Position numbers and translations under genes: made by a program
In this document: positions 11,254 to 37,215 of the stretch, in pieces
Layout of the letters: the number at the start of each line of letters is the position of its first letter
Position numbering within the stretch: position 1 is the stretch's first letter
DNA from: Trichodesmium erythraeum GBRTRLIN201
Lineage (GTDB): Bacteria; Cyanobacteriota; Cyanobacteriia; Cyanobacteriales; Microcoleaceae
Direction of reading: 5' to 3'
Length of the DNA: 48,215 nucleotides
Assembly (NCBI GenBank): GCA_018457135.1
Contig: JAGGDU010000053.1
Span: 1 to 48,215, forward strand
Notes under the pieces: generated by a model
Told to the model about the DNA's origin: nothing
The model's input: only the letters and a program-made list of their open reading frames with translations
The model's database searches: none

Positions 11254-11258
11254 AGTTG

Positions 11259-13330
11259 TTAATTAGTTGATTTTTGCCAACCCCAGATTTCAGTGATGTA
11301 CTCTGTCAGTTCTCGACTAATTAACTCAAGAGGAGTTTTATTGCTTAAATCTAATTTGTCTTGTTCATTTACCCATTGAATAAACTTGCCTACATATTTC
11401 TGGTAAGCACCTGTTAGATTTTCTCGCATTTTTCCCAATGTTTCACGAGTCAGTAAATATCAAACTTGACTCTCCATAAATTCTGTTTCTACTTTTTTAC
11501 TTTCCGGGTAATTATCTAATAATTGGAGCCATGTTTCTAGCCTCTCAATAAGAAAGTATTTTTCTATAATTTTATCCATAAAAATAGTTCGTTTTATATC
11601 GTCTTTGTCAAGAATATTTGAAAGTTATTGCCAACTCATCCAGGCACTAGAATTACTATCTATAACTAACTTACTTAATATTGACGATAATTCAACTTTT
11701 TCTGGGGAATTATCTGGTTTTGCTAGAGATTTATCTGGAGAATTTTGCCGGCTAATATCTGGAACGTACCTTGAAGTTAAATATGATTCTAGTGTATCTG
11801 AATATTCGTCTGTAAATTTGTCTGAAGACTTATCTTGAAAATATTGGGAATTAAACTGTTTATAAAATTTATCTGGAGACTCATCTGTCAATTTATCTCG
11901 ATATCTATCTTGAAAATATTGGGAATTAAAAAAATTATCAGCTTCCATAAAATCACATAGTTTAAATTTCACTTTTTCTTCTGGAAAACTAATACTCTTT
12001 TCTATTGCAGATTCCAATAGTGGCAAACTTTTTTCATAAGTTAGTGAGTGAGATTTTAGAGAAGTAAGATAAAGCTCACTAGTTTTAGAATTGCTAATTT
12101 TTAAATTATTACTAATCTCAGGAATATGGAAAATACTTTTCTTTTTTTGCCATAAATATCAAGTCAAAGAATTGATTGTCTCAATAAAATTTTTATGCCA
12201 ATTTTACTTGAAATTACTTAGCTCAAAATTTTTTATCTCTAAAATCGAAAAATGCGAAAAAAGTTGTTTAATAAACAAGTCTTTAAAATTATCCCTCGTA
12301 ATTTTTCCAACTAATGCTAAATCCCATAGTTAAAATTTATATTTCTGAGAATAAAATATCTTTTCACAACCGATTCTTAGTTTTTCCAGTTTGAAATATT
12401 TTTGTGTAGAGTCTTGGAAGTATTCTGGATTATTTTGCAAATCTTCAATCCCTTCTTTAGATTTTTTTTCTATCAGTTTTAAACAAACATTTTGTAATAC
12501 CTTGACAATGTCATACCCGAGATTTTTATCTGCTAAATAATCTATAAATTTATTTTCAATTAAGTTTCTAAAAAGTCAAAAAAACCTGATTATCTGTTTC
12601 TACTATCTCTAAAAAATTATCCGGCAAACAAGAAGAGATTTTACATAACAGAGTCTTCGTTAAGCTGCCATTATTTTCAAGTATTGGCAATGCTTTCCAC
12701 AGGTATAAAAGTTTTAAATTTTTACTATCTGGAATTGATGAATTTTCGCCAAACGTATCCAGAAAACTTTGCGCTTTTTCTTCCATTCGAGGAACTTACT
12801 TGCCCAAAATTTTAATTTTTTCTTGTGACTCTGCTGGGCAATTAAAAATAAAATCTATTGATGAATTATTTAACTTCAACCAACTATCTACTTCCTGGAA
12901 TTTCCAAACTAAATTATCAGAGTTATCCTGAGTAGTCTTATCAAGATACTCACATAAGTAATTAACTTTTCATATTTATCTTTGGTCGGAGCAATTAAAT
13001 CTTTGACATATTCCTGGTCTAGATTTTCTTCTTTCTCAAACTCCTCTTGACTAAAATCTCACAACACTATATTATCAGGAAAAAAATATTTTGAAAAATT
13101 ATCTGCCTTAAGTATTATTTGTGCCCACTTGCAATATTCAGGGTCAACCGAACCTATAGCTAAAGATATTTTGCTGCCCAGATGAGTAGACAGGAAAAGC
13201 AAAGGAATATCTAGAAGTAATAATGATGATACTATCTTTGGTTGACTAGTTGGTTGACTAGTAAGTAATAATTTTTTACTATTCAAAAGTACATTTAGTC
13301 TTTGAAGCAAAATATTTTGCTCAGATTTTT
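11259..13330 (-). pseudogene. Large decayed gene of unknown family, about 700 codons
   Basis: Joined minus-strand frames give one long protein-like sequence with many stops and frameshifts. Pieces in order are: LLDIPLLFLSTHLGSKIS (about 13200), EEFEKEENLDQEYVKDLIAP (13040), YLADKNLGYDIVKVLQNVCL (12520), KYFKLEKLRIGCEK (12390), an open stretch of 133 codons ending at 11625, then ETLGKMRENLTGAYQKYVGK (11430) and the terminal ITEIWGWQKSTN stop at 11259-11261. The open stretch has an internal duplication: FNSQYFQD occurs twice about 60 bp apart, each followed by acidic, serine-rich DKxTDEysD text. I do not recognise the family. It lies directly downstream of the FGE-sulfatase gene on the same strand and may have been part of that accessory locus. 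Confidence 0.65.
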
Positions 13331-13443
13331 TAAGTTTTTTTCATACCTTTTCTATTAATACAGCGCTTTTCAAATTTATCAACTACATCACCATAACCAA
13401 AACTTTGTAGGGAGGTTCCATGGAAGGTTCCTATTTGCAACGT

Positions 13444-13479
13444 CTCTGCTGTGGTCTAGGGTGATGAAAACTGCTGTAA
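13444..13479. repeat. Dispersed 36-bp repeat
   Basis: CTGCTGTGGTCTA followed by GATGAAAACTGCTGTAA. The copy at 9636-9670 reads CTACTGTGGTCTA then AAGTGAAAACTGCTATAA. The two agree at most positions and lie in unrelated spacers. They are probably fragments of a multi-copy element. Confidence 0.5.
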
Positions 13480-13509
13480 TTATTCTTGGAGGCTAATTTT
13501 TTATTCTAA

Positions 13510-13544
13510 CTGATGGCTGATAGCTGACAGCTGAATGCTTACAG
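13510..13544. repeat. Heptamer short tandem repeat (STRR type)
   Basis: Five successive heptamers: CTGATGG, CTGATAG, CTGACAG, CTGAATG and CTTACAG. Degenerate heptamer repeats are a known feature of filamentous cyanobacterial genomes. Another set is at 31091-31176. Confidence 0.75.
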
Positions 13545-13681
13545 TCACTATACCTATTTCCTTCCACCAAAGTATAAGTATTCACCCAGATATGATATCA
13601 GTTGAGAGCATCAATAAATTTAAACTTGACATCAGACTATCATAGATTTCAATGTAATACGTTGTAGTATTATATGGTAGC

Positions 13682-17269: not shown

Positions 17270-18091
17270 GAATTTTAAGCTTAGGCAGGAAGGGTGAAAA
17301 AAACATCCTCCTGAGCAAAAAATCATCTCAACATCCGTATACCTTAGAAGTCGCTACTAATGAGTTTTAATTAAGATAGAAAAATTACTGATTTTCCGGA
17401 GTTTACTTTACACAACATTGATGATTTTCTGGAGCTTCAGGAGTCGATACTGATGAGTTATTATATGGTTGGGTAACTACACTTTGAAGGATAGAGTTAG
17501 CATTTACCAACAGAAAGTTTTTTTCTCAGTGATGATCCGGAGATAGTCTTATAAATAAAATGGAAAGATTGCTGATTTTCTGTGTTTTATCTACACAACA
17601 TTGCTAGAAAATTACCAATTTTTCGGATTTTACCTACACAACACTGCTAATTTTCCGGATATTATCTACATAACAGTGACTAAGAATACTAAAATCTCAC
17701 ATAATGGTACTTAGTTATGCTCAAGGTAAAAAATCATTTTTTTTCGTGGCTATTTTTTGAGGCTGAAATCTACAGACATAATTGATATAAACTATACATA
17801 ATCGAAATCTACTCAGCATCTACTAAATAACCCAACAAATATTTCATATATTCTTGACTTATGCAACTTATTTAATAGATGTCAGTAAAATTAAAGTTTT
17901 CAGCTTAATTAATCAATTAATCAAGTTAATTTATCGCTTATAAAATTTGATGTATATGTAATTTTTAGTTAGCAAACTTATCATATTTTAGTGATTCAAA
18001 AACCACCTAAAAACAAAGATAATTATTGATGAATAAATACATAATTAAACTTGAATAAATGTCTTAAGAGAGTATATAATATTTGGAAATC
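17270..18091. other. 822-bp spacer with degenerate repeats upstream of the cyclase
   Basis: Between ridA and the cyclase gene. It carries the ~40-bp repeat copies at 17381-17676 and a second-level pair (GTCGCTACTAATGAGTT at 17351 and GTCGATACTGATGAGTT at 17443). The 400 bp nearest the cyclase gene are AT-rich with no recognised motif. Confidence 0.6.
17381..17676. repeat. Degenerate ~40-bp repeats, four copies
   Basis: Copies lie at 17381-17420, 17564-17603, 17608-17645 and 17646-17676. Each follows the pattern GCTGATTTTCCGGA, then TTTTACCTACACAACA and TTG. The last three are nearly contiguous at 40-44 bp spacing. The first is offset by about 180 bp. They are not CRISPR-like because no unique spacers separate the last copies and the copies diverge. 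Confidence 0.65.
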
Positions 18092-21000
18092 ATGAACGAT
18101 CAAAATAAAACTAAAGAGGAACTAATTCAGGAACTAGTAAAACTTCGTAAAACTGTTAGTAAATTAGAAGAAGCTAATTCAAATTCCCAGTTAATAGGAC
18201 AAAAATTAAATAATGTAATTGAAGATCGCAATGCAGCACTAAAAGAATCAAACGATCAGCTTATCCAAGAAATTGTTAAACGCCAACAAGCCGTAAAAGC
18301 TTTGAGAGTAGCAAAAGAAAAGTTACTAACTGTTTTGGCAGCAGTACCAGGTACAGTATCTTGGATCAAGTCAGATTTACAGTATATAGAAGTTAATCAG
18401 CGTTTAGCTGATATGTTTGATCTACCCAAAGAAGAATTTCCGGGAAAACATATTGGTTTTTTAGAGACAAGTTCTGAGTTTAATGACTTTATCAAAGAGT
18501 TTTTTGAGAGTTCGCAGTTAGAAACAACCCGTGAAATTGGAGTAGTAGTTGATGGGAAACCTAGAAACTATTTGGTAGTTGCACAAAAGTATCATAAAAA
18601 TCAAGCTGCCTTTATAGTAGGTATAGATATTACTGAAAAAAAACAAGCAGAATACAAATTAAGAAAAGCAAAAGAACAGTTAGAAACAGTTTTAGCAGCA
18701 GTACCAGGTACCGTATCTTGGATTAGTTCAGACTTACGCTATATTGAAGTTAATCAGCAGTTAGCTAATATTTTTAGTATGCCCAGAGAAGAATTTCCGG
18801 GGAAATATATTGGTTTTTTAGGGATCAGTTCTGAATTTAATGATTTTGTTGAGGGGTTTTTTGCTAGTTCTGATCTCGAAACAATAGGTGAGGTTGTATC
18901 ACAAATTGATGGGGAAGATCGAAACTATTTAATTATTGCACAAAAGTACAATCAAAACAAGGCTGCTTTTGTCATAGGTATAGATATTACTGAACGCAAA
19001 CAAGCAGAAAAAAATCTGTTAGTTAGTAAAGAAAAACTAGAAACAGTATTAGAAGCTGTTCCAGGAATGGTTTCATGGATTAATTCAGATTTAACCTATA
19101 TTGAAGTCAATCAAAAATTAGCTGATACATTTAACCTAGCACCAGACGAATTTGTTGGCAAAAATATTGCTTTTATAAACAAAAATTATAAATTTAATTC
19201 TTTAATTCAAGATTTTTTTGCTAGTCCTGAGCAGGAAATAACTGCTGAGATTACTTCAGAATACAATAATATATCCCAAAATTATTTAATAGTTGCTCGC
19301 AAATATAATCATAATCAAGCAGCATTTGTAGTTGGAATTAATATTACCGAACACAGACAAGTAGAGTTAGAGCTTGGGGTAGCTCAAGAACAGTTCAAAA
19401 CTATTTTAGAAGCAGTGCCAGGAATCGTATCTTGGATCAGCTCAGATTTACGGTACTTAGGAGTTAATAAACACTTAGCAAAAACTTACAATTTACCCCA
19501 AGAGGCTTTTGTTGGTCAAAATATTGGCTTTCTCAAATCTAGTGAAAAATTTAGTACATTTATGCAGCAATTCTTTGCTAGTTCAGCTCAGGATGCCTAT
19601 GAAGAAATATCTGCTTGGGTTAATGGTACTCTCCGAAGTTATTTAATTGTCTGCCACAAATATGCTCAAGGGGCAGCTGCTTTTGCTGTAGGCATTGATA
19701 TTAGTGACCGCAAGCATGCAGAGGTAGCACTACAAGAAGCTGAAGAAAAATATCGTACTATCTTTGAAAATGCCATTGAAGGAATTTTCCAAGCATCTCC
19801 AGAAGGTCACTTGATCAGTGCTAACCCGGCATTAGCTCGAATTTATGGTTATGGTTCTCCTGAAGAAGTGATTGCTGATCTGGTTTGTTTGCCACATCAA
19901 CTTTACAGTCATTATAAATACCAGGAGCAATTTATCCAAAAATTAAAGGAGCATGGTCGCTTAGTTAATTATGAATCACAAATTTATCGTCCAGATGGCA
20001 GTTTAATTTGGATTTCCGAAAATACTAAAGCTGTATACGATCAAGATGGCAAATTAATTCGTTATGACGGAACTGTCGAGGATATTACAGAACGAAAACA
20101 AGCACAAGAAGCTCTACAAATAGCTAATCAGCAGTTAGAAGCCAAGGTTGAGGAACGCACTCAAGCTTTAGTGGAATCAAATCGTTTGCTAATGATAGAA
20201 ATTTCAGATCGTCGTCGTGCTGAGATTGCCTTAAGAGAATCTGAAGCAGAATTACGGGTGTTATTTGAGGCCATGACTGATATAGTTACTGTCTTTGATT
20301 CCCAAGGTAGATATGTCAAAATTTTCTCTACTAATTCTAAGGTATTATATACTCCTACCAATGAATTGATTGGCAAAAGTGTTGATGAGGTTTTGCCCCC
20401 TCAGCAAGCTAGCTTATTTATGATTAATATTCAACGGGTGCTGAATACCCAGGAAACTGTGAATGTAGAATATAGTCTATTTCTATCTGATCATCAACAG
20501 GATAATGATATACATAGTCTATCATGCGAAATGTCTAATTACCAATCTTACCAATCCCATCCCGATCATTATTCTTCTATTTCTCAACCTAATAAAGCTT
20601 GGTTTACTGCTAACGTTTCACCATTACCAGATAACTGTGTAATTTGGGTAGCGCATAATATTACAGAACGCAAACAGGTGCTAGATGCTTTGCGAACAGC
20701 AGAGGAAAAATACCGCACCATCTTTGAAAATGCCGCAGAAGGAATATTTCAAACTACTGTTGATGGACGCTTTATTAGTGCAAATCCAGCTTTAGTTAAA
20801 ATGTGTGGGTTTTCATCAGAAACAGAGTTAAAAGAGAGGGTAACTGATATTGCTAAACAACTATATGTTGACTTAAAGCGTCGCTCTGAGTTTGTTGCTC
20901 AAGTTGAAAAATATGGCTCTATATCAAATTTTGAATCAAAGATTTATCGTTGCGATCATAGTGTGATGTGGATTTCTGAAAATGTTCGTGTAGTTCGTAA

Positions 21001-21715
21001 TTCTGAGGGAGAAGTACTTTATTATGAAGGTACTGTTCAAGATATCACAAAACGTAAATATATAGAAACTGAACTGCGCTTAGAACAACAAAAATCTGAC
21101 AGTTTATTATTGAATATTTTGCCTGCTCAGATAGCTGGAAAATTAAAACAAAATCAACGTGCGATTGCAAAACGGTTTCAAAATGTGACTATTTTGTTTG
21201 CTGATATTGTGGATTTTACTAGCTTTTCGGCTCGGATATCTCCCACTGAACTAGTGCATAGGCTGAATCAAGTTTTCTCAGAGTTTGATAAATTAACTGA
21301 ACAACACAATTTGGAAAAAATTAAAACAATTGGAGACTCTTATATGGTGGCTAGTGGTTTACCCAAAGCCAAAGAAGATCATGCCGAGGCGATCGCTAAA
21401 ATGGCAATAGATATGCAAAAGGTAATTAAGAAATTTTTAAATGATCGCGGAGAACCTTTTCAAATTCGCATTGGTATTAACACCGGGCCTGTAGTAGCAG
21501 GAGTAATTGGTATTAAAAAGTTTGTTTATGACTTGTGGGGTGATACAGTAAATGTAGCATCTCGGATGGAATCAAGTGGAACACCTGGTAAAATTCAAGT
21601 TACCGAAGCTACTTATCAACTTTTACAAGATAAGTTTTCATTAGAGTCACGAGGGTATATTCCGGTTAAAGGTAGAGGAGAAATGATGACTTATTGGCTT
21701 ATAGATCAGGGATAA
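18092..21715 (+). CDS. Multi-PAS class III adenylate cyclase
   Basis: The 1207-residue protein makes cAMP. It begins with a coiled coil (about 8-80). Four tandem PAS repeats of about 115 residues follow (roughly 80-545), each with the pattern AVPG-x-VSWI-x-SDL and ending in VGIDITE-like text. A fifth PAS/PAC, a coiled coil (about 675-715), a sixth PAS with a polar insert, a seventh PAS/PAC and a C-terminal cyclase domain (about 1025-1205) complete it. Metal-binding Asp1038 (FADIVDF) and Asp1082 (GDSYM) are present, as are adenine-specifying Lys1078 and Asp1147 and the transition-state residues Asn1154 and Arg1158. These residues predict adenylate, not guanylate, cyclase. No transmembrane segment is seen, so it should be soluble. 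The frame also opens with TTG at 18083, but the ATG at 18092 is preferred. Confidence 0.9.
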   Translation: MNDQNKTKEELIQELVKLRKTVSKLEEANSNSQLIGQKLNNVIEDRNAALKESNDQLIQEIVKRQQAVKALRVAKEKLLTVLAAVPGTVSWIKSDLQYIEVNQRLADMFDLPKEEFPGKHIGFLETSSEFNDFIKEFFESSQLETTREIGVVVDGKPRNYLVVAQKYHKNQAAFIVGIDITEKKQAEYKLRKAKEQLETVLAAVPGTVSWISSDLRYIEVNQQLANIFSMPREEFPGKYIGFLGISSEFNDFVEGFFASSDLETIGEVVSQIDGEDRNYLIIAQKYNQNKAAFVIGIDITERKQAEKNLLVSKEKLETVLEAVPGMVSWINSDLTYIEVNQKLADTFNLAPDEFVGKNIAFINKNYKFNSLIQDFFASPEQEITAEITSEYNNISQNYLIVARKYNHNQAAFVVGINITEHRQVELELGVAQEQFKTILEAVPGIVSWISSDLRYLGVNKHLAKTYNLPQEAFVGQNIGFLKSSEKFSTFMQQFFASSAQDAYEEISAWVNGTLRSYLIVCHKYAQGAAAFAVGIDISDRKHAEVALQEAEEKYRTIFENAIEGIFQASPEGHLISANPALARIYGYGSPEEVIADLVCLPHQLYSHYKYQEQFIQKLKEHGRLVNYESQIYRPDGSLIWISENTKAVYDQDGKLIRYDGTVEDITERKQAQEALQIANQQLEAKVEERTQALVESNRLLMIEISDRRRAEIALRESEAELRVLFEAMTDIVTVFDSQGRYVKIFSTNSKVLYTPTNELIGKSVDEVLPPQQASLFMINIQRVLNTQETVNVEYSLFLSDHQQDNDIHSLSCEMSNYQSYQSHPDHYSSISQPNKAWFTANVSPLPDNCVIWVAHNITERKQVLDALRTAEEKYRTIFENAAEGIFQTTVDGRFISANPALVKMCGFSSETELKERVTDIAKQLYVDLKRRSEFVAQVEKYGSISNFESKIYRCDHSVMWISENVRVVRNSEGEVLYYEGTVQDITKRKYIETELRLEQQKSDSLLLNILPAQIAGKLKQNQRAIAKRFQNVTILFADIVDFTSFSARISPTELVHRLNQVFSEFDKLTEQHNLEKIKTIGDSYMVASGLPKAKEDHAEAIAKMAIDMQKVIKKFLNDRGEPFQIRIGINTGPVVAGVIGIKKFVYDLWGDTVNVASRMESSGTPGKIQVTEATYQLLQDKFSLESRGYIPVKGRGEMMTYWLIDQG

Positions 21716-22220
21716 TTCTAATTACAGGAAAAAAATTTCCAACCCTTATTATACTTATCCCACACTTTACTGATCCACTACCTAAAAGTTTTTATAAGGT
21801 TAAACACTAATTATTAACCCACATTCTGGACTTCAAGCATACTACCAGTATACTATTAAGGAAGAAGGAGGATTAGAGCTTCTATTATTTCTAATAACTA
21901 TCAATACTTTTTGTAATATTTTTTTTCACTAACAAACCTCATGGTTATTATCAGGTCAAGCTTTCAATGGCATTTCTTATATGCTACATTTTGACGTGCG
22001 GAATGTAAATTATAGGAATTGGCTTACAATATTTTTAGTTTTTTGATATAATTTATAATTTAAGCAGAACTTACGTATTGCTTCTATATGTGGTATGTTT
22101 TTGATAGTTGTTTCCGATATTTATACTAAAATTAGTGTCTTTGGGTAAGCTCTGTTAGAGTTATAATTGTCAAAAGTTTTCTTTTCTTAAGGCTAGGAAT
22201 TAATAAACTAACAAAACTAA
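21716..22220. other. 505-bp non-coding spacer
   Basis: Separates the cyclase from the restriction-modification locus and should contain the hsd promoter. Sequence is AT-rich. GCAGAACTTACGTATTG at 22072-22088 loosely resembles the motif at 15900. Nothing else recognised. Confidence 0.4.
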
Positions 22221-23702
22221 ATGATTACAGGTGAACTAAAATCAAAAGTAGATAAGTTATGGTCGACGTTCTGGAGCAATGGTATTAGTAACCCATTGTC
22301 AGTTATTGAACAAATATCTTACCTATTATTTATTAAACAACTTGATCAGCAGGAAGCAGTTAAGGAGAAAAAAGCGCGACGGCTAAAAAAGGTAAAAGAA
22401 AAACTAATATTTTCAGAAGCATCACAAAGCTGTCGATGGTCTCACTTCAAGGAATTAGCAACAGATAAGATGTTTGAGGCTGTAAGGGATGAGGCTTTTC
22501 CTTTTATCAAAACTTTGGGGGGAACTTTAGAAAATAATGCCTACTCTCGACACATGAAGGATGCTGTATTTATGATAGGCAGCCCGGCATTATTGGCAAA
22601 TGTGGTGCAACAAATAGATAGTTTACCCCTCGATGACCGAGATACTAAGGGGGACCTCTATGAATATATGCTTTCTAAGCTGAATACTGCGGGGCAAAAT
22701 GGACAGTTTAGGACACCGCGCCACATTATTAAGATGATAGTGGACTTGATGACACCCCAACCTAATGATGTCGTTTGTGACCCTGCTTTTGGTACGGCTG
22801 GGTTTTTGGTCGCCGTAGCAGAACATTTACAACAACTCAAGGATGAGAATGGTTCCTTAGTTTTGAATGCACCAGGAAACAAAGAGCATTTTTATCAGCA
22901 TATGTTTCACGGTTTTGACTTTGATGCCACAATGTTGCGTATTGGTAGTATGAATTTAATGCAGCATGGTATTGAAAATGCTCAAATTGAAGCGAGGGAT
23001 GCTTTATCGGAAGACCACGCGGGGGTTGAGGAAATGTTTACTTTGGTTTTGGCTAACCCACCGTTTAAGGGGTCGATACAAAAGTCAAGTATTGCTAAAG
23101 ATTTAACTAAAATTGTTAATACTACTAAAACAGAGTTGTTATTTTTGGCTTTATTTTTAAGGTTATTAAAAACGGGGGGTCGGGCGGCGGTTATTGTGCC
23201 TGATGGGGTTTTATTTGGTTCTTCTAAAGCCCATAAAGATGTTCGTAAGATGTTAGTTGAAGAGCATAAGTTAGATGGAGTTATTTCTATGCCATCGGGG
23301 GTTTTTAAACCTTATGCGGGGGTATCAACAGCGATTTTAATGTTTACAAAAACGGGGGCGGGTGGTACTGATTTTGTTTGGTTTTGTGATATGCAGGCGG
23401 ATGGTTTTTCGTTGGATGATAAACGGCAACCTGTAGAAGAAAATGACATTTCTAATATTACTAAAAGTTGGCAAAAACGGAATCCTAAAAAAGATAAGGA
23501 CCGGAATAGTAAGACGTTTTTTATACCGAAGGATGAGATAAAAGATAATGGTTATGATCTTTCTATTAATAGATATAAAGAGGTGGCATACGAGGAGATA
23601 GAATATGAGCATCCTTTAGTAATTTTAGGTAAGTTACGAGAATTAGAGGATGAAATTAATCAAGATTTGGATGAGTTGGGGCAGTTATTAAATGGAGATT
23701 AA
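22221..23702 (+). CDS. hsdM: Type I restriction-modification system, DNA methyltransferase subunit
   Basis: The 493-residue protein is the M subunit of a type I system and methylates adenine at N6. An N-terminal helical HsdM_N domain covers about 1-140 (LWSTFWSNGISNPLSVIEQI, YLLFIKQLD). The S-adenosylmethionine site DPAFGTAG is at 187-194 and the catalytic motif NPPF at 279-282. Length and order are normal, with no lesion. With two HsdS/HsdM partners it would form the methylase, and with HsdR the nuclease. The stop overlaps the start of the next (broken) gene by 11 bases, so the locus was a tight operon. Confidence 0.95.
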   Translation: MITGELKSKVDKLWSTFWSNGISNPLSVIEQISYLLFIKQLDQQEAVKEKKARRLKKVKEKLIFSEASQSCRWSHFKELATDKMFEAVRDEAFPFIKTLGGTLENNAYSRHMKDAVFMIGSPALLANVVQQIDSLPLDDRDTKGDLYEYMLSKLNTAGQNGQFRTPRHIIKMIVDLMTPQPNDVVCDPAFGTAGFLVAVAEHLQQLKDENGSLVLNAPGNKEHFYQHMFHGFDFDATMLRIGSMNLMQHGIENAQIEARDALSEDHAGVEEMFTLVLANPPFKGSIQKSSIAKDLTKIVNTTKTELLFLALFLRLLKTGGRAAVIVPDGVLFGSSKAHKDVRKMLVEEHKLDGVISMPSGVFKPYAGVSTAILMFTKTGAGGTDFVWFCDMQADGFSLDDKRQPVEENDISNITKSWQKRNPKKDKDRNSKTFFIPKDEIKDNGYDLSINRYKEVAYEEIEYEHPLVILGKLRELEDEINQDLDELGQLLNGD

Positions 23703-24195
23703 TCTGCAAAAGGAGGAGTTTAGTTATGCTTATATTTGAGGGGTTGCTACTGTGGCGGGTTGTGTTTTTCAAGGAACTACTCCCCCTTTAGATGGGTTGG
23801 GAATTGATTTAATTTTAACTTGATTAAAATCACGACTACCAGAAAATTTTCCGATTCTTTATGTGCTGGTAAAATGTAATTCTAGGGGGGTTATTAATGA
23901 TGATATTGTCCCCTTTCCTTTGTCTGTGAAAAACTATAATGATTTGAGGGTAATTAATCGTTATCCGCGGATAATTTTTATTGTTGTGGTTGTGCCGGAA
24001 AAGGTGGAGGAATGGCTACTAAAATCTGAATCATCTCTTTGTTTTCTAGGTTGTGGTTATTGGTTATCTTTGGCGGGTGCTGATGTGACGAAAAATCAGG
24101 ATAATATTACTGTTTCAATTCGGAGAAAAAATATGTTTAATCCTCAAGTTTTAGAGGGAATTATGGAGAAGGTTTGGCAAGGGGATATGTTATGA
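23692..24195 (+). pseudogene. DUF4365 protein gene with two nonsense codons
   Basis: The ATG at 23692 lies inside the end of hsdM. The frame is interrupted by TGA at 23737-23739 and TGA at 23821-23823 and then runs open to 24195. The joined product has 167 codons. It matches DUF4365: EEFSYAYI then GVATVAGC, GLGIDLILT, ILYVLVKCNS, PLSVKNYNDLR, PRIIFIVVVVPEKVEEWL and CGYWLSLAGA. DUF4365 proteins are uncharacterised and turn up near restriction or defence genes. Neither TGA has a context suggesting recoding. The 110-codon tail from an internal start would lack the conserved N-terminus. The call of the family is strong and loss of function is likely. Confidence 0.75.
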
Positions 24196-24728
24196 ATTTT
24201 ATTGTTAAAGATATTAATTTATTTAATAATATTCAGCGGGAAGTTGTGGCTAATTATTTGGAATAAGGAGGTTGGAAGCAGCAAAGACTGATTGAAAATG
24301 AGGGGATAATTTGGGGTAAGAATGGGGTAGATTTTTCTAATATGACTTTGGTTTTACTATTGAATCAAGAGGTTGCAGATTTTCTTTTAAGTATTAATTT
24401 ATTGGTGGAAAATTTGGCTAATTTTGAGGGGATAACTGAGTTGGAAATTTTGCTAAAGTTAATGACTAATTTGCCTAATGTGGAGATACAGGGGTTAATT
24501 GTGGGGATAAGGTCACCAGAAGGTGATATACTTAGTGGAGATGTTGATTTTATGGGGGTGGTTATGAATAAGTTGGAGAGGATAAAAATGGTATTATTTG
24601 ATAGGGATTATGTTGTGGGAATTAGGGCTGATCAGGAGCGTTTGCCTGTGTTATTTGGGGGGGATTTGGTGAAGGGACATAATGGTTTTGTTTTGAAAAA
24701 TGTTTGTAATTTTGAGGTGGATAAGTAG
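24192..24728 (+). pseudogene. Partner gene of the DUF4365 protein, broken by one stop
   Basis: The start ATG at 24192 overlaps the stop of the DUF4365 gene in the ATGA arrangement, so the two were translationally coupled. The frame reads NLFNNIQREVVANYLE-like text and meets TAA at 24264-24266. It then continues open (GGWKQQRLIENEGIIWGK) to 24728, for 178 codons in all. The YLE-stop-GGW context suggests a former CAA or AAA codon. The rest (for example EIQGLIVGIRSPEGDILSGD) shows no lesion. The family is not named with confidence; genes of this sort, a small protein with a YLxxxGW start, seem to accompany DUF4365 genes. Confidence 0.6.
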
Positions 24729-24785: not shown

Positions 24786-25994
24786 ATGAAATGGCAGCGT
24801 GTTTTTGTTGAAGATGTAGCTAAAATTGTAACTAAGGGAACTACTCCTACTTCTATAGGTTTTAGCTTTTCTAAAGAAGGTATCCCTTTTCTACGAGTCA
24901 ATAATATCCAAGATGGTAAAATCAATCTTGGTGATGTTTTATTTATTGACTCAAAAACGGATCAAGCTCTTGCGCGTTCTCGAATTTTAAAAAAAGATGT
25001 AATAATTTCAATTGCTGGTACAATTGGAAAAACCGCAGTTATTCCTACTAATGCTCCAGCAATGAACTGCAACCAGGCACTTGCAATAATAAGGCTTCAC
25101 AATAATGTAGACCCCTACTATTTTAACCATTGGCTGAATACAGGAGATGCGTTTCGACAAATTACAGGTTCAAAAGTGACAGCAACTATTTCTAACCTAA
25201 GTCTTGGTTGTATCAAAAAGCTCAAAATCCCCCTCCCCCCAATAGAAGAACAGCGCCGAATAGCTGCAATACTCGACCAAGCTGATGCTATCAGACGAAA
25301 GAGACAACAAGCGATCGCTCTAACAGATGAATTATTGCGTTCTACATTCCTGGAGATGTTCGGCGACCCTGTTATTAATCCGAAGGGGTGGGAGGTAAAA
25401 AAATTAGAGGAAGTTGCATTAAAACGCAAGGGGGCTATAAAATGCGGACCTTTTGGTAGCCAACTACTTATAAGCGAGTTTGTCAAAGATGGTATTCCAG
25501 TATACGGAATAGACAATGTTCAAAAAAATGAGTTTGTTTGGGCCAAACCCAAGTATATTACTACTGAAAAGTACGAGCAATTAAAAAGCTTTTCTATCCA
25601 GGATGAGGACGTTCTGATTTCAAGAACTGGAACAGTTGGAAGAACTTGTGTCGCACCACCTGATATCCCTAGAAGTATCCTTGGACCTAACTTGCTGAAA
25701 GTTTCCTTAAATACTAACAAAATGCTTCCTAAATATTTGTCCTATGCTTTAAATCACTCTAATCCCCTGATTGAAGAGATAAAAAGAATGTCACCAGGTG
25801 CTACAGTTGCAGTTTTTAACACAACAAACCTTAAAGCTTTGAGGTTAACAATTCCCCATATAAACCTGCAATCCCAGTTTGTCAACTTTACTGAAAATGT
25901 TGAATTGACAAAGCAAAAAGAGTCTAACTACCTCACAGAATCCAACAACCTATTTAACTCCCTGTTACAACGCGCATTCAAAGGCCAACTATAA
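24786..25994 (+). CDS. hsdS: Type I restriction-modification system, specificity subunit
   Basis: The 402-residue protein has the two-lobed layout of HsdS. Target recognition domain 1 covers about 1-130, with the conserved segment LKIPLPPIEEQRRIAAIL at about 145-162 and a coiled spacer (RRKRQQAIALTDELL). Domain 2 starts near 200 (WEVKKLEEVALKRKGAIKCGPFGSQL) and ends with LRLTIPHINLQSQFVNF and the terminal SLLQRAFKGQL. It sets the DNA sequence recognised by the complex. Both halves are intact. GAAGGG lies upstream of the ATG. The spacer after the broken partner gene is 57 bp. The target sequence cannot be predicted by eye. Confidence 0.93.
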   Translation: MKWQRVFVEDVAKIVTKGTTPTSIGFSFSKEGIPFLRVNNIQDGKINLGDVLFIDSKTDQALARSRILKKDVIISIAGTIGKTAVIPTNAPAMNCNQALAIIRLHNNVDPYYFNHWLNTGDAFRQITGSKVTATISNLSLGCIKKLKIPLPPIEEQRRIAAILDQADAIRRKRQQAIALTDELLRSTFLEMFGDPVINPKGWEVKKLEEVALKRKGAIKCGPFGSQLLISEFVKDGIPVYGIDNVQKNEFVWAKPKYITTEKYEQLKSFSIQDEDVLISRTGTVGRTCVAPPDIPRSILGPNLLKVSLNTNKMLPKYLSYALNHSNPLIEEIKRMSPGATVAVFNTTNLKALRLTIPHINLQSQFVNFTENVELTKQKESNYLTESNNLFNSLLQRAFKGQL

Positions 25995-26010: not shown

Positions 26011-29000
26011 ATGACCTCAAACTTTGACTTTCTCAAACCCCACTACCCCAAACTACACCAAACCGCCACCCAGGCAGAAACATTAATCAACAACGCCCCC
26101 CGGGCCAGTTGCTTCTACACCCGCTACACCTTAGAACAAGCGGTTATCTGGCTCTACGAAAATAATCCTTACCTAGAGCTCCCCAAGACCTACAACTTAG
26201 GGGCATTAATTCACGAGCAAACCTTTAAAGACAACCTCCAAAACAACCTTTTCCCCAAACTCCGCATCATTCACAAAATAGGCAACGCAGCAGCCCACGA
26301 CCCCAAACCCATCACCTCCAAAGATGCTCGTTACCTCATCCAAGAACTCTATCACTTCCTCTACTGGCTCACCCGCTACTACAGCCCCGACGGCAAAAAC
26401 CTCCCTAACCTCAAATTCAACCCCGACCTCATTCCCACAAGCACAACTAAGTCAGACCTCACCCTCGATAAACTCCAACAACTCGAAACCCAACTTTCTA
26501 CCGCCCAAGAAATGCAACGCATCGCCGAACAAAAAGAAAAACAAACCACCGCAGAACTAGAAACAGCAAAAGCCGAACTCGCCCAACTCAAACAACAAAA
26601 CCAGACCAAAAGCGATCGCCACGACTACAACGAAGCCGATACCCGCACCTACTTACTTGATATTTTACTCAAAGAAGCTGGTTGGCCGATACATCTGCCA
26701 GAGTCTACAGAATACCAAGTCACAGGAATGCCTAACGAAACAGGAAAAGGTAAAATTGACTATGTATTTTGGGGAGATGACGGCAACCCTTTAGCAATAG
26801 TAGAAGCAAAACGCACTCGCAAGAGTCCCCAAACAGGACAACATCAAGCCAAACTATACGCCGACTGTCTGCAAGCAGAATTTAACCACCGCCCCGTCAT
26901 TTTCTACAGCAACGGTTATGAGCATTGGATATGGGATGATTTTAACTATCCACCCCGCCCCATTCAAGGCTTTCTCAAAAAAGACGAACTAGAGCGTTTA
27001 ATATTCCGCCGGAGTCATCGTCAACCCCTCCATACCCTGGATGTCAACCCCGACATCGCCGGACGTTGTTATCAAAAAGAAGCTATCTGTTGCATCAAAG
27101 AAATATTTGACAACAAACAGCGTAAAGCATTATTAGTCATGGCAACAGGAACAGGTAAAACTCGGACAGCCGTCAGTATTGTAGAATTATTGGAACGAGC
27201 CAACTGGGTGAAACGAGTCTTATTTTTAGCGGACCGCAACGTCCTCTTAACTCAAGCCCAAGGTGTCTTTAACAGTAACCTTAACAGTATTACCACTGCA
27301 AACCTAACCGAAAAAAAACAAGACGCAGAAAACGCCACCATTGTCTTTTCCACCTACCCCACCATCAGCAACCGCATCAACGCAACTGATGGAGATAAAC
27401 GCTTATTCAGTCCTGGATATTTTGATTTAGTTATAGTAGATGAAGCACACCGTTCCATCTATCGCAAATATCGGCAAATATTTCAATATTTCGATGCTCT
27501 ACTTTTAGGTTTAACAGCTACACCCCGCAATGAAGTAGACCGGGACACTTACAGTATTTTTGACTTAGAGCCTGGGGTTCCCACCTTTGCTTATGAATTA
27601 GACAGCGCCATCAAAGACGGTTATCTCGTTCCTCCCAGTGGTGTCGAAGTTCCCTTTAAGTTTATGCGGGCAGGTATTAGATATTCAGAACTGCAACCAG
27701 AGGAAAAGACAGCCTATGAGGAACGGTTTGCTGATGCAGAAACTGGGGAAGTGCCGGACAAAATTAATGCTACAGCTCTTAATACTTGGTTATTTAATAT
27801 TAGTACCGTAGACCAAGCGCTACAGTTATTAATGGAGCGGGGGCTAAAAGTAGAAGGAGGCGATCGCCTCGGTAAAACCATCATTTTTGCTCGCAACCAC
27901 AAACATGCTGAGTTTATTTCTGAACGGTTTAATGCTAATTATCCCCACTACAAAGGTCAGTTTGCTCAAATTATTGATAGCCAAAGTTCCTACTCTCAAA
28001 GTTTGCTGGATGACTTTTCAAATGCAGACAAACAGCCAATTATTGCGGTGTCTGTAGATATGTTAGATACAGGGGTAGACGTGCGGGAAGTAGTTAACTT
28101 AGTATTTTTCAAACCAGTCTATTCTCGGATAAAATTCAATCAAATGATTGGACGCGGTACTCGTTTATGCCCTAACTTATTTGCTCCGGGTGATGATAAA
28201 ACAGAATTTTTAGTATTCGACCTGTGCAGTAACTTCAGTTATTTTGAGCAACAGATAGACGAAAAAAATGTAAAAATTCCTGACAGTCTCACAACAAAAT
28301 TAGTCAAATCACGCCTTGAACTGAGTCAATTAGTACCCACTGGCGAGTTAAAAAATAACCTCTTAGATGAGTTGCATCAATATATTAACTCAATGCCCAA
28401 AGATAACTTTTTAGTGCGCCCCCATTTGCAGCAAGTAGAAGAGTTTTCCCAGAGAGAGCGATGGAATGAGTTAGGAGAAAGCGATCAAGAAATAATAGGG
28501 GAGTCATTAGCAAGTTTACCCAATGGTTTACCAAAAGAGAGCCATTTAAATAAACGGTTTGACCTAATATGTGTCAAATTACAGCTAGCATTGTTAAAAC
28601 AGTCAACAGACTTTATCAGACTCCGGGATAATATTCGAGATATTTGCTCTCAACTCGCCCAAAAGTCTAACATTCCCATGATAGCAGCAAAACTACAAGT
28701 TATTGAAGAAGTACAAGCAGAGGAATGGTGGCGAGATATTACAGTAGAAATGGTTTCAATTTTACAGCAAGACTTACGAGAATTAGTAAAATTTATAGAT
28801 AGCCAAGAACAAAAAATTATGTATGTAAACTTTGCCGATGAAATGGGAGAAGTGCAAAATGTCAACGTTCCCACCCAAACATCAGGGTTTAGTCCTCTCC
28901 AGTATAAGAAAAAAGTAGAGGCATATATTCGGAGTAATGAGAACAATGTTGCTGTTGCTAAATTAAAACGTAATATCCCCTTAACCGACGCTGACTTAAC

Positions 29001-29370
29001 AGCATTAGAAGAAATGTTATTTAATAGTGAAGTTATAGAAGATAGGGAAATATTTGCCGAAGTTTACGGTCAAAATATTAGTTTAAAACTATTTATTAGA
29101 AAGTTAGTCGGATTAGATAGAAATGCAGCCAAAGAATTATTTAGTAAATATTTAAACAGCAAATTTAACACCAGTCAAATTAGATTTGTTGAGAATATTA
29201 TCGACTATTTAACTCAAAATGGAGTGATGTCCCCAGAATTATTATATGAGCCACCTTTTACAGATTTACACACGGAAGGATTAGATGGTATCTTTGCAGA
29301 TAAAGAGGCAGATAACATTATTGAGATATTGACAGAGATTAATGAAAGTGTTGATTATGACGTAGCTTAG
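26011..29370 (+). CDS. hsdR: Type I restriction-modification system, restriction subunit
   Basis: The 1119-residue protein is the motor and nuclease subunit. An N-terminal DUF4145-like domain (about 10-125) leads into a coiled coil (about 145-205). The nuclease domain follows with Asp250 and Glu265-x-Lys267 (PD-(D/E)xK type). The SF2 helicase has Walker A ATGTGKT at 378-384, DEAH at 477-480, LTATPR near 500, and a conserved C-terminal helicase motif (IGRGTRL near 715). The DUF4145 plus EcoEI-like C-terminal layout is common for this subgroup. All catalytic residues are present, so the enzyme looks functional. AAAGGA lies 10 bases before the ATG and hsdS ends 16 bases upstream. The GC content of the first 600 bases is higher than that of hsdM. 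Confidence 0.94.
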   Translation: MTSNFDFLKPHYPKLHQTATQAETLINNAPRASCFYTRYTLEQAVIWLYENNPYLELPKTYNLGALIHEQTFKDNLQNNLFPKLRIIHKIGNAAAHDPKPITSKDARYLIQELYHFLYWLTRYYSPDGKNLPNLKFNPDLIPTSTTKSDLTLDKLQQLETQLSTAQEMQRIAEQKEKQTTAELETAKAELAQLKQQNQTKSDRHDYNEADTRTYLLDILLKEAGWPIHLPESTEYQVTGMPNETGKGKIDYVFWGDDGNPLAIVEAKRTRKSPQTGQHQAKLYADCLQAEFNHRPVIFYSNGYEHWIWDDFNYPPRPIQGFLKKDELERLIFRRSHRQPLHTLDVNPDIAGRCYQKEAICCIKEIFDNKQRKALLVMATGTGKTRTAVSIVELLERANWVKRVLFLADRNVLLTQAQGVFNSNLNSITTANLTEKKQDAENATIVFSTYPTISNRINATDGDKRLFSPGYFDLVIVDEAHRSIYRKYRQIFQYFDALLLGLTATPRNEVDRDTYSIFDLEPGVPTFAYELDSAIKDGYLVPPSGVEVPFKFMRAGIRYSELQPEEKTAYEERFADAETGEVPDKINATALNTWLFNISTVDQALQLLMERGLKVEGGDRLGKTIIFARNHKHAEFISERFNANYPHYKGQFAQIIDSQSSYSQSLLDDFSNADKQPIIAVSVDMLDTGVDVREVVNLVFFKPVYSRIKFNQMIGRGTRLCPNLFAPGDDKTEFLVFDLCSNFSYFEQQIDEKNVKIPDSLTTKLVKSRLELSQLVPTGELKNNLLDELHQYINSMPKDNFLVRPHLQQVEEFSQRERWNELGESDQEIIGESLASLPNGLPKESHLNKRFDLICVKLQLALLKQSTDFIRLRDNIRDICSQLAQKSNIPMIAAKLQVIEEVQAEEWWRDITVEMVSILQQDLRELVKFIDSQEQKIMYVNFADEMGEVQNVNVPTQTSGFSPLQYKKKVEAYIRSNENNVAVAKLKRNIPLTDADLTALEEMLFNSEVIEDREIFAEVYGQNISLKLFIRKLVGLDRNAAKELFSKYLNSKFNTSQIRFVENIIDYLTQNGVMSPELLYEPPFTDLHTEGLDGIFADKEADNIIEILTEINESVDYDVA

Positions 29371-31273: not shown

Positions 31274-33079
31274 TCAATCTAATCGTAACACCGCCATAAA
31301 AGCTTCCTGTGGAACATCAACCGTACCCAAGGACTTCATCCGCTTCTTACCCTTAGCCTGTTTTTGTAATAACTTCTTCTTACGGCTAATATCCCCACCA
31401 TAACACTTAGCCAAGACATCCTTCCGTAAAGCAGGAATATGCTCACTAGCAATAACCTTAGAACCAATAGACGCTTGAATTGGTACCTTAAACTGATGAC
31501 GGGGAATTAACTCCTTCAACTTTTCCGCCAAAGCCCGGCCTACCCCATAAGCCTTATCCCGATGCACAATTATAGCCAAAGCATCCACTGGTTCAGCATT
31601 AATCATAATATCCAACTTAACCAAAGGATTCTCACGATAACCTATAAGATGATACTCCATACTAGCATAACCGCGAGACCGAGACTTCATTTGGTCGAAA
31701 AAATCCGTAACCACCTCTGCCAAAGGAATCTCATATACTAAAGTAGTTCTACCCTGAGCCAGATACTTCATATCCTTAAATACCCCCCGTCGTGACTGAC
31801 CCAGCTCCATTAACGTCCCTACATATTCCTCTGGAGTAATCATTTCCACCCGAACATAAGGCTCCTCAATTTTTTCTCGCAAATTAGGCTCCGGCAAGAA
31901 ATTTGGGTTATCAACCAAAATCACCTCCTCCTTACTAGTAGTTACCTGGTAAACCACCGATGGAGAAGTAACAATCAAATCTAAACCATATTCTCGCTCC
32001 AACCTTTCCTGGACAATTTCCATGTGCAGCAGTCCTAAAAAGCCACATCGAAATCCAAAACCCATAGCACTCGACGTTTCTGCCTCATAAGACAAAGCTG
32101 CATCATTAAGTTTAAGCTTATCCAATGCTTCTCGTAAATCTGGAAACTGGTCAGCATCAGTAGGAAATAATCCACAAAACACCATAGGGTTAGCTGACCT
32201 GTAACCTGGCAGAGGATCCTGAGCCTGTTTTTTGGCCAAAGTAATCGTATCTCCCACCCTTGCATCTTCCACCGCCTTAATAGCCGCCGAGAAATAACCA
32301 ACCTCTCCTGCATGAAGCTCCTGTACTGGTTGTTGAGTTGGAGACAAAACTCCTAGATCATCTATCTCATATTCCTTTTTAGAAGCCATAAGTCGGACGC
32401 GATCGCCCTTAGCAATAGTCCCATCCATAACCCGGAAATATACAATTACCCCTCTATAGGAGTCATAATAACTATCAAATATCAGGGCCCGTAATTTTTC
32501 ACCTATAGTATCTTGTGGTGGTGGTACTAACTGAACAATGGACTCTAAAATTTCCGGAATTCCTATTCCTTCTTTAGCAGAAGCTAAAATTGCACCCGAA
32601 CAGTCTAAACCAATTATTTCCTCTATTTCCTCTTTTACCCGTTCTGGTTCTGCCCCTGGCAAATCTATCTTATTTAAAACCGGGATAATTTCTAAATCAT
32701 GCTCCAAAGCCAAATATACATTAGCTAAAGTCTGAGCCTCTACCCCTTGGGAAGCATCTACCACCAACAAAGCACCTTCACAAGCCGCTAAAGAACGGGA
32801 TACTTCATAAGAAAAATCTACATGACCAGGTGTATCAATAAGATTTAAAACATATTCTTCCCCATCTTTAGCATGGTAATTCATTCGGGCAGCCTGGAGT
32901 TTAATTGTAATGCCACGCTCCCTTTCTAAATCCATCGTGTCTAAGAATTGCTCTTTCATTTCACGGTCTGCCACCGTACCGGTTGCTTGTAGTAAGCGAT
33001 CTGCTAAAGTTGATTTTCCGTGGTCTATATGAGCAATAATGGAAAAATTACGAATATGAGATACAGGAACTTTTGTCAT
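31274..33079 (-). CDS. lepA: Elongation factor 4 (LepA)
   Basis: The 601-residue protein is a complete LepA/EF4 GTPase that binds ribosomes and can back-translocate or help 30S assembly. The P loop AHIDHGKS is near residues 16-23, with RGITIKLQA (switch I) and DTPGHVDF (switch II) following and NKID for guanine recognition. The C-terminal domain carries [21 protein letters not shown], typical of the family and basic. Length is normal. It stands alone on the minus strand, with an IS200/IS605 relic just upstream at 33109-33260. Confidence 0.97.
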
Positions 33080-34091
33080 ATTTTTTTTTTATAATGTGAT
33101 ACTTTCGTCGACATACCCCTCGCCCTAAGCCGTTGGGGATTCTCTCTTCACAGGGAGAGCCAAGCAGGAATATCAACCCCCACCCCGATCTCTTTACCTT
33201 CGGTGACCTTTTTTCCCGTCTGCCCGACGGTACTTTATACTCTTCACTTTAACGAAAAATTAGATTTAAAGCCTTGCCCATCAGAAGCCGACTTTTTAAT
33301 TGTTTTTTTTTAATACATATGCTATAATAACTTTTAAATAATTACTTGTAGGTTGACCATCCGAAAAAAAATGGACCTAGAAGCAAAGGTAAAACTAAAG
33401 TCAACTTTCCCCACTTGCCACATAAAAAGTAGTATAATTAGGAAAGTATGTTAAATGTAAAATGTCAACCCACCAAAGAACCTCACCATTAATAGAATTG
33501 ACATTGAATCAGATTAGCCTTGAAAAAGAGAAAAAGAAAATAACCCATCTCATCAGTTTCTTAAAATAAAATGACAAATATCTAGCCATGTATAATGGTA
33601 AATCCTTACTCAATAGACTTAAGATTTAGATATCAACTTGTACTGATTATTGAGAATTACCACATAAATTAAAACTAACTTAACTCTATTCTCACATTAG
33701 CATAGAAATATTAAGCTATCGCAAGAAATACCTTGTCCTCAAGCCAGACTTCGGTAAACATAATTTACTGAGATTTTAATTATAGGCTTGACAAATAAGT
33801 AATAATGTAGTATGACTAAACATTGTTTATAAGATGCTATAATTTATAATAAAAAACTATAGTAATAGTAATTCTATATTGACATTGTCCAAAATATAGC
33901 CTTGCTACTTTTGGCAAAAAGAGAATAAGAATTAAGGTAATAGTGGGTAAGAAGTTCGGAGTTTATTTCTAGATTTTTGAATTTTCACAACCACTTGATT
34001 AGATTGTTATGTATACAGAATTATATTATTTCTGAGTAACATTGTTAAATTAGTTATTGTATATTAATAAATCAATTTAGGATTATTTAAC
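33080..34091. other. 1012-bp non-coding spacer
   Basis: The first 180 bases hold an IS200/IS605 relic (33109-33260). From 33300 to 34090 the DNA is AT-rich with no open frame of note. The divergent promoters for lepA and the ribbon-helix-helix gene should be here. Confidence 0.5.
33109..33260 (-). mobile_element. IS200/IS605-type right end relic
   Basis: On the minus strand the sequence GAGAGAATCCCC leads into a hairpin-forming stretch (AACGGCTTAGGGCGAGGGG) at 33111-33140. Before it lie the GC-rich bases GGCTCTCCCTGTGAAG. This is the layout after tnpB at the right end of cyanobacterial IS200/IS605 elements. About 100 bp of GC-rich DNA to the right may be the tail of tnpB; the rest is gone. 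Confidence 0.45.
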
Positions 34092-34325
34092 ATGGGGATA
34101 AATGAGTCTAAAATTAATCAGCGAAAGTCAACTGAAAAAGTGGAATTATCTATACATATAGATTCTAGGTTACTAGACCAAGTTCAGCATTTGACAAATG
34201 ATCCCAGTAAAGTAATTGAAAGTGCTCTTCGTCAGTGGTTAAGAGGAGGTATTCCCGAAGATGAATTAGCTTTAACCCTTCAGAGAAACCCTCCTATCCC
34301 TCCAAGAGGTGAATGGAATGATTGA
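34092..34325 (+). CDS. Small ribbon-helix-helix-like protein
   Basis: The 77-residue protein has a likely ribbon-helix-helix core: a strand (KVELSIHIDSRLLDQV, about 18-33) and two helices (PSKVIESALRQWLRGG about 40-55). The tail IPEDELALTLQRNPPIPPRGEW is conserved-looking. Such proteins bind DNA as dimers and many are antitoxins. No toxin gene lies next to it, so it may be a free regulator. The length and start fit well. Confidence 0.6.
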   Translation: MGINESKINQRKSTEKVELSIHIDSRLLDQVQHLTNDPSKVIESALRQWLRGGIPEDELALTLQRNPPIPPRGEWND

Positions 34326-34380
34326 AACTTAATTTTTTCTCAAGTTTTATATTCTCTAATTTATAATTTAATAGTACAAA

Positions 34381-34418
34381 TATTATTAGTATTTATTGAT
34401 ACTATTAGTATTTATTAA
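34381..34418. repeat. 19-bp tandem duplication
   Basis: TATTATTAGTATTTATTGA at 34381-34399 is followed at once by TACTATTAGTATTTATTAA at 34400-34418; 17 of 19 positions agree. The 310-bp spacer around it (34326-34636) is otherwise AT-rich with nothing recognised. Confidence 0.7.
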
Positions 34419-34636
34419 TTAAACAAAAACTTGATTTTCATTATTTGAGAATAAAAATATAGTAAATTATCCAAACTTGTGAGAAATTAACCTAACTTCA
34501 AAGACAATCTTTGGATATTCTCAATATCAATAGTAAATAATTACAATTGGTGTAATCTTAAAATAAACCAGTGAATAGCTAGATAGCTATTGGTAAAAAT
34601 GAATTGAATAGGAAATAGATATCAAGAATTTGAAGA

Positions 34637-37200: not shown

Positions 37201-37215
37201 TTGGACTAGAGTTAA

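Follow-up and report, generated by a model that had tools for sequence, protein, structure and literature searches.

A broken gene pair within a type I restriction operon

The DNA analyzed here, a stretch of 48,215 nucleotides from the cyanobacterium Trichodesmium erythraeum GBRTRLIN201 (contig JAGGDU010000053.1; hereafter the window), encodes a type I restriction operon in which a decayed pair of genes, termed g1 and g2, lies between hsdM and hsdS. All five genes are on the forward strand. The methyltransferase subunit gene hsdM (22221-23702) has an open frame of 493 aa with N6_Mtase and HsdM_N domains and is recognized by PADLOC as MTase_I. The specificity subunit gene hsdS (24786-25994; 402 aa) contains two Methylase_S stretches, and hsdR (26011-29370; 1119 aa) encodes a restriction subunit of the EcoEI_R_C type that also possesses ResIII and HSDR_N domains. 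Between hsdM and hsdS are the pseudogenes g1 (23692-24195), identified by its frame, Pfam, PADLOC and a profile match through its stop codons as a PDC-M02A-like DUF4365 nuclease gene, and g2 (24192-24728), which encodes a short form of the PDC-M02B partner protein. The ATG of g1 at 23692 lies 11 bp within hsdM, which ends at 23702, and the terminal TGA of g1 (24193-24195) overlaps the ATG of g2 at 24192 to form an ATGA start-stop overlap (24192-24195); g2 terminates with TAG at 24726-24728. There are in-frame TGA codons in g1 at codon 16 (23737-23739) and codon 44 (23821-23823), and an in-frame TAA in g2 at codon 25 (24264-24266). An earlier note on this DNA had placed the overlapping genes and the three stops at exactly these positions, and re-reading of the frames confirms them, together with the two overlaps and the integrity of hsdM, hsdS and hsdR, all of which are open and retain the expected Pfam domains.

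Homologue models that exclude the window sequence match the g1 frame through both TGA codons (E 4e-49, positions 1-164) and the g2 frame through the TAA (E 3e-49, positions 1-178), and matches through the stops at E values near 1e-49 identify the two genes as true pseudogenes and not chance frames. The three stops fall within the 343 codons of the module, compared with none in the 2014 codons of hsdM, hsdS and hsdR, and the chance that three stops placed at random among all 2357 codons, hsd genes and module together, would all fall in the module is about 0.003. We found a further lesion in g1 that was not part of the earlier note. Residue 59 (codon 23866-23868) is leucine, whereas all 17 intact relatives in alignment A2 and all 48 in alignment A4 have the glutamine of the QxK motif (Q57). 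The D...QxK active site of the window g1 is consequently incomplete, with Asp 39 and Lys 61 kept and the glutamine replaced. When positions are equated by motif, the glutamine at the corresponding place binds metal in the NbaSPARDA nuclease (PMC12205087), and the Q62/K64 pair was changed to make inactive TmuRE (PMC10810196). The stops and the lost glutamine, set against the open hsd frames, bear out the proposal that the module degenerated through point mutation while the restriction genes remained open. Stop codon readthrough or recoding was ruled out: TGA and TAA are mixed in the module, TAA and TAG are the terminators of hsdM, hsdS and hsdR, and the stops of sister genomes are found elsewhere.

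The nuclease and its partner

The open piece of g1 (23824-24192) matches Pfam DUF4365 (PF14280) with an E value of 6.8e-10 and 39.6 bits against a cut-off of 24.3, and it matches 24 PDC-M02A models of PADLOC (best E 2.7e-29). DUF4365 has been placed among the Mrr-like PD-(D/E)XK nucleases (PMC6299218). In a Foldseek search, the predicted structure of an intact g1 (mean pLDDT 85) finds the DREN domains of SPARDA as best match (E 7e-7), followed by Holliday-junction resolvase structures. Intact g1 proteins are 163-178 aa in the short pairs of a sample of 386 genomes from the phylum; DUF4365 is the single domain above cut-off, and no APAZ domain was found over cut-off. The g1 protein therefore resembles the DREN nuclease of TmuRE and NbaSPARDA in Pfam family, in fold and in the Asp, Gln and Lys kept by intact relatives, and differs from it in having no APAZ domain over cut-off and a different partner, and, in the window copy, in having lost the glutamine. 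Nothing marks that partner as a short Argonaute: neither Pfam nor NCBIfam gave a match above cut-off for an intact g2, and the flanks were not searched for Argonaute genes.

The open piece of g2, which adjoins g1 on the same strand, matches 10 PDC-M02B models of PADLOC (best E 1.5e-16). PDC-M02 is a candidate system of PADLOC-DB composed of PDC-M02A and PDC-M02B, and the window pair resembles it in matching both families and in the adjacency, common orientation and overlap of its genes. It differs in that the window copy is broken and its g2 is short. At about 180 aa, g2 does not reach the full length of the 380-position PDC-M02B model, matching only positions 1-90 and 286-376 (window 24192-24464 and 24453-24728); model positions ~91-285 have no counterpart in the window g2, nor do positions ~92-292 in other short forms. 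Long forms of g2 are present in the same phylum (L163-L167). By sequence comparison, the window pair is a short-form relative of PDC-M02 and not a standard member. The name PDC-M02 was not found in the literature searched, and we found no treatment of the g1-g2 pair in the accessible portions of the literature that mentions DUF4365.

In the predicted structure of an intact g2 (pLDDT 85.7), residues 93-176 are ordered strand-strand-strand-helix-strand-strand, as in an OB-fold. A first Foldseek search with this model gave no match at E 0.001; in a second structure comparison the model was aligned to OB-folds, with a Z score of 10.3 for SilF and of 8-9 for SSB and PriB. The OB-fold assignment derives from the second comparison and the strand order and applies to residues 91-180 only, the N-terminal half having been barely tested. 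The g2 protein is predicted to consist of an N-terminal alpha/beta part and a C-terminal OB-fold, and a shared OB-fold alone does not tell its function. Some divergent DUF4365 proteins (L191, L194, L198, L199) are followed by other partner frames of 75 to 385 aa, and some of these partners resemble the N-terminal part of g2 alone. It may be that the N-terminal part is the nuclease-binding piece.

Distribution, embedding and decay of the cassette

With the window g2 as query, a match was detected in 28 of the 386 phylum genomes, its own included. All 22 intact short pairs checked in this sample overlap by 4 bp, as does the window pair, with ATGA in 21 and GTGA in one. The window's own g2 found nothing in named genomes; an alignment of intact copies was needed as query, and it yielded a second collection of 80 named cyanobacterial loci, kept from 123. 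Both genes are intact in 48 of these, among them a natural fusion, whereas 28 have an intact g2 with g1 broken or absent, one has an intact g1 with a g2 below the 165-aa limit (L148, 162 aa), and three have neither gene graded intact. Filamentous cyanobacteria often have intact relatives, for the most part not within type I operons and in some cases on plasmids. Seventeen cyanobacterial plasmids carry relatives of g2; some of these plasmids are near-copies of each other, and in 10 the annotation places a DUF4365 gene at the match. At the ten plasmid loci that were read, a DUF4365 gene is annotated in eight, ParA-type genes lie upstream in five (annotated as ParA family in four, as AAA ATPase in the fifth), and nine have a gene for a tyrosine-type recombinase or a site-specific integrase close by. 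Plasmids of bacteria outside the cyanobacteria also carry the long form, as do two mycobacterial prophage records, both at their left end; in the one that was read (L225, MW584173, 398-2160), a long PDC-M02B-like second gene overlaps a first gene of 186 codons. Occurrence on plasmids and prophages fits a mobile cassette.

The earlier note regarded the pair as an accessory or anti-phage part lying in the restriction operon; membership in the restriction system itself is not supported. When the flanks were searched by tblastn with seven type I protein queries, only 9 of 117 loci gave any type I-like match, where the 117 include duplicates between the two collections and divergent hsd genes may escape the seven queries. 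By the note's own standard, a pair lying mostly away from defence genes counts against its proposal, and that is largely the case for restriction genes, the one kind of defence gene that was surveyed systematically. No intact hsdM-g1-g2-hsdS locus was found elsewhere, and intact embedded pairs lie instead behind hsdS. The cassette is behind hsdS in five of the 80 named loci. In Dolichospermum (L115) it is 6 bp behind hsdS and is followed by hsdR. In Trichormus (L104) a 256-aa frame separates hsdS and g1, and in Nostoc (L105) the contig ends behind g2. Cuspidothrix (L101) has a g1 remnant with open hsdM, hsdS, g2 and hsdR frames. In Scytonema hyalinum (L146, 6512-7543) g1 and g2 are naturally fused in a single 343-aa frame between hsdS and hsdR, overlapping the end of hsdS by one base.

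A tree of g2 has four changes of the type I-operon label for these five loci and the window, and also four when only starred branches are counted; we read them as four gains into type I operons. HsdR is of the EcoEI_R_C type in the window, with the cassette between hsdM and hsdS, whereas L047/L115 and L146 have the T1RH-like_C type, with the cassette between hsdS and hsdR; the HsdR proteins of L101 and L104 are 86-89% identical to this one. Because both the kind of HsdR and the slot differ, the cassette was acquired independently by different type I operons. An HsdM_N match is present in 211 of the 386 genomes, with one to seven each among the matches listed, and in an informal comparison four gains seem more than chance alone would produce, type I operons being a small part of these genomes. 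The cassette was no fixed part of the restriction enzyme.

A relative of the window hsdM was detected at E 1e-60 in eight of 61 family genomes, its own included (G397 and G434 are partial), and the closest full relatives are in G433, G255 and G429, with 67-69% identity. A fixed hsdM-g1-g2-hsdS architecture was rejected, as the pair is in none of the five related operons read (G433, G255, G429, G334, G412). The HsdR is EcoEI_R_C in both of those scanned (G255, G334). In G255 the hsdM-hsdS gap is occupied by eight small co-oriented frames, including a UPF0150-like protein with HicA, a Phd/YefM antitoxin, a nucleotidyltransferase with a HepT-like protein, a PIN protein and a DUF433 protein, and a further PIN protein is encoded between hsdS and hsdR. 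PIN genes are also present in G429 (between hsdM and hsdS) and G433 (between hsdS and hsdR), and a Uma2 gene lies between hsdM and hsdS in G334. In the related operons of L234, L235 and L236, toxin-antitoxin-type genes thus occur in both gaps. The HicA, Phd/YefM, nucleotidyltransferase/HepT-like and PIN genes belong to families unrelated to g1 and g2 and are of classical toxin-antitoxin kinds, and they share with the pair the same slot in operons whose hsdM is 67-69% identical. As judged from gene families, the window pair occupies a slot where related operons carry genes of classical toxin-antitoxin type. Among the matches listed for literature on toxin-antitoxin genes in cyanobacterial type I operons, none was seen to concern the g1-g2 pair.

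Within the genus, remains of the short form are present in four of seven genomes, none of which has an intact short pair. The G387 copy has 82% DNA identity to the window, with one stop in g1 and one in g2; these are at codons other than those of the window, and the window stop positions are sense codons in G387. G388 has a g1 remnant with other stops and an open g2 of 168 aa, somewhat short but possibly complete, and in addition two long g2-type frames, each next to an intact g1 gene. In G391 nothing but the g2 tail remains (94% DNA identity), followed by a 104-aa frame without Pfam match and then an hsdS-like frame, and G386 has no more than a 29-bp DNA match. The different stops in G387 and G388 indicate that decay in the genus happened repeatedly. 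No match to the window hsd proteins was found in the 19.0 kb (G387) and 7.6 kb (G388) around the copies. The DNA similarity to G387 starts 8 bp before the g1 start and stops 14 bp before the g2 end, edges near the gene ends as expected of a cassette moving as a unit. Comparison of the window with G387 gives dN/dS of 0.47 for g1 and 0.30 for g2; values below 1 point to constraint over much of the divergence, so that decay of the window pair is probably fairly recent. In G387 (L039, 4421-8727, minus strand) the g2 frame continues past its usual end to a stop at codon 298, the extension having no Pfam match over cut-off, and it adjoins a Peptidase_C14 (caspase) protein with weak VWA and HATPase matches. 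Perhaps this remnant was captured by a caspase-type conflict system.

Across the family, loss of the two genes is asymmetric. The 386 genomes were searched from the g2 side and from the g1 side. Where g1 is intact, at 27 gradable loci, g2 is open in 26 (22 short and four long, the latter graded solely by an open frame of 371-403 aa) and broken in one, G211, in which the g2 frame stops at 89 aa near a contig end. The opposite state, g2 intact with g1 broken, reduced or missing, is found at 12 loci, two of them long forms (G099, G334:C11, G191:C1 at ~6.466 Mb, G101:C60, G022, G155, G064 twice, G030, G305, G336 and G282). The two-sided sign test gives 0.003 for this 12:1 asymmetry, or 0.006 when the like remnants of G155 and G064 are merged. 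We set aside three divergent g1 loci (G278:C10, G101:C14, G308) and G091, with ungradable partners, a weak g1 match (G306), a contig-end locus (G048:C416), partial g2-like matches without a g1 match (G336:C1 at ~6.743 Mb, G193:C108), g1 fragments without g2 beside them (G300, G048:C42, G289, G099 at ~2.4 Mb, G039:C67 at ~4.7 kb), and loci at which neither gene has survived (G000, G153, G127, G024). G388 is outside the 386-genome sample and was not counted, and the 80 named loci were left out of the test because they were found through g2. On the g2 tree of the named loci with the window, G387 and G388, a set likewise found through g2, the broken or absent state of g1 changes at least 23 times.

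Some of the solitary g2 genes are under selection. The sister pairs L113/L117 and L111/L114 have dN/dS of 0.17 (0.11-0.28) and 0.21 (0.08-0.44), respectively, and since the flanks shared within each pair lack g1, the nuclease gene was absent before each pair split; the estimate for L099/L102 was too imprecise to be used. These codon-level comparisons indicate purifying selection on g2 alone in both sister pairs. That the nuclease is hardly ever retained once its partner is gone, whereas the partner can persist without the nuclease, is the pattern that a toxin and its antidote would leave, and the family-wide order of loss, nuclease first and partner kept, fits loss of a costly nuclease.

A probable dead toxin-antitoxin-like cassette and its alternatives

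We present a hypothetical model in which a mobile cassette, probably consisting of a DNA-cutting enzyme and a protective partner, would comprise the small DUF4365 nuclease g1 and the g2 protein made from the overlapping gene. In intact copies, g2 would most likely bind g1 and keep the nuclease inactive. Upon phage infection, or upon loss of the carrier element, g1 would be released or assembled, and the pair would act as a toxin-antitoxin or abortive-infection cassette. One copy inserted between hsdM and hsdS, the slot of ordinary toxin-antitoxin-type genes in related operons. In the window lineage g1 was inactivated by two stops and loss of a catalytic residue, and g2 was lost through one stop, in whichever order, with the restriction genes remaining open. 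We consider it fairly likely that the window module is a dead toxin-antitoxin-like pair of a DREN nuclease and an OB-fold protein docked in a restriction operon. As in type II toxin-antitoxin systems, the genes are small, overlapping and co-oriented, and the partner outlasts the presumed toxin gene. A precedent for such docking comes from E. coli, in which the DarTG2 system, likewise a two-gene toxin-antitoxin pair, occupies the hsdS-hsdR gap of a complete type I operon (PMC12255303); its proteins are unrelated to g1 and g2, its slot is different, and its activity has been shown by experiment. Embedded defences are the subject of a preprint by Payne et al. 2024, as cited in the same article.

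Several observations weigh against this model. The isolated DREN domain of SPARDA is reported to have shown no detectable nuclease activity (PMC12205087); by itself g1 may thus be harmless, and g2 could act as a sensor or scaffold. The selection on solitary g2 could also reflect a second function of this protein. The 12:1 ratio rests on few events, with the reverse class being one locus near a contig end. Type I-like flanks are scarce among relatives, and in one of the related operons, G412, the gap between hsdM and hsdS is empty (13 bp). Nuclease first is also not the commonest gene order of toxin-antitoxin systems.

The alternative that fares best is a sensor-effector defence without an antitoxin, in which the OB-fold of g2 would sense phage single-stranded DNA and assemble or activate the DREN nuclease, as Ago-APAZ does in SPARDA. 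The closest structural match of g1 is a DREN domain activated by assembly, the g2 OB-fold is of the SSB/PriB type, the longer PDC-M02B could accommodate a sensor domain in its middle, and such pairs are entered in PADLOC as a candidate defence system. The last point is also what remains of the idea in the earlier note of an accessory or anti-phage part: resemblance to a catalogued candidate stands, and membership in the restriction system is not supported. A sensor without its effector should decay, yet the two solitary g2 sister pairs are under purifying selection, and it is not obvious why a sensor would be kept at 12 of the 13 discordant loci. We regard this alternative as possible though improbable.

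It is unlikely that the pair was functionally part of the type I enzyme, as a guard of the PrrC type, with the restriction complex silencing the nuclease and a phage block releasing it. The gene prrC is a nuclease gene embedded in the type IC operon EcoprrI, and its product is sequestered in that enzyme (PMC3874165); the four label changes on the g2 tree and the five named loci behind hsdS could be seen in the same light. PrrC differs from g1 in being an anticodon nuclease held by the restriction enzyme, whereas the DUF4365 pair is mostly found without such operons. The consistent linkage that a guard would show is not found, as most copies are unlinked to type I genes; operon type and slot differ between the window and L047/L115 or L146; and L101 retains open hsdM, hsdS, g2 and hsdR frames with no more than a remnant of g1.

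Still less probable is a neutral passenger, a useless cassette decayed by drift in a genus rich in noncoding DNA. The Trichodesmium genome is reported to be 40% noncoding (PMC4649490), and the window seems rich in noncoding or decayed DNA, with only short open reading frames at 33079-37216 and 10501-13632; the four genus genomes holding remains have no intact short pair. The dN/dS values of the window and G387 are below the neutral value of 1, and drift explains neither selection on solitary g2, nor the asymmetry of loss, nor repeated entry into type I operons. Drift does explain the last step in the genus, and in this it is compatible with the toxin-antitoxin-like model. Finally, the idea that sequencing or assembly error created the stops is scarcely credible, even with the species represented by one assembly, because G387 (g1 and g2) and G388 (g1) have other stops, the stops are concentrated in the module and absent from the neighbouring genes, and g1 has the additional catalytic change.

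Two other features of the window lie near the operon. Upstream (18083-21715) is a gene whose 1210-aa product combines several PAS domains with an adenylate/guanylate cyclase domain, and the DNA immediately before hsdM (21818-22149) has matches elsewhere in the genus, inverted (L041, 320-511; L044, 7157-7251).

The broken copy itself is a modest finding; more useful are the unequal loss of the two genes and their position in a slot that toxin-antitoxin-type genes also occupy. A pair known from a candidate list becomes a hypothesis with polarity, g1 toxic and g2 protective, and intact copies can be named: the pair of Tychonema sp. BBK16 (short-form g1 at L083, 6507-7001), the Nostoc plasmid pairs and the natural fusion. 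Tentatively, we extend the model to suggest that the hsdM-hsdS and hsdS-hsdR gaps may be docking sites for toxin-antitoxin cassettes in filamentous cyanobacteria, that the DUF4365 and OB-fold pair may be a new class of such cassettes, and that the solitary partner may be an antidote against plasmid copies. The window would then represent the end stage, with nuclease and antidote dead and the restriction enzyme alive, and the gaps of type I operons would be places where cassettes insert and later decay, with the restriction frames remaining open. If it is true that solitary g2 genes are antidotes, some cyanobacterial chromosomes would be guarded against the addiction cassettes of their own plasmids.

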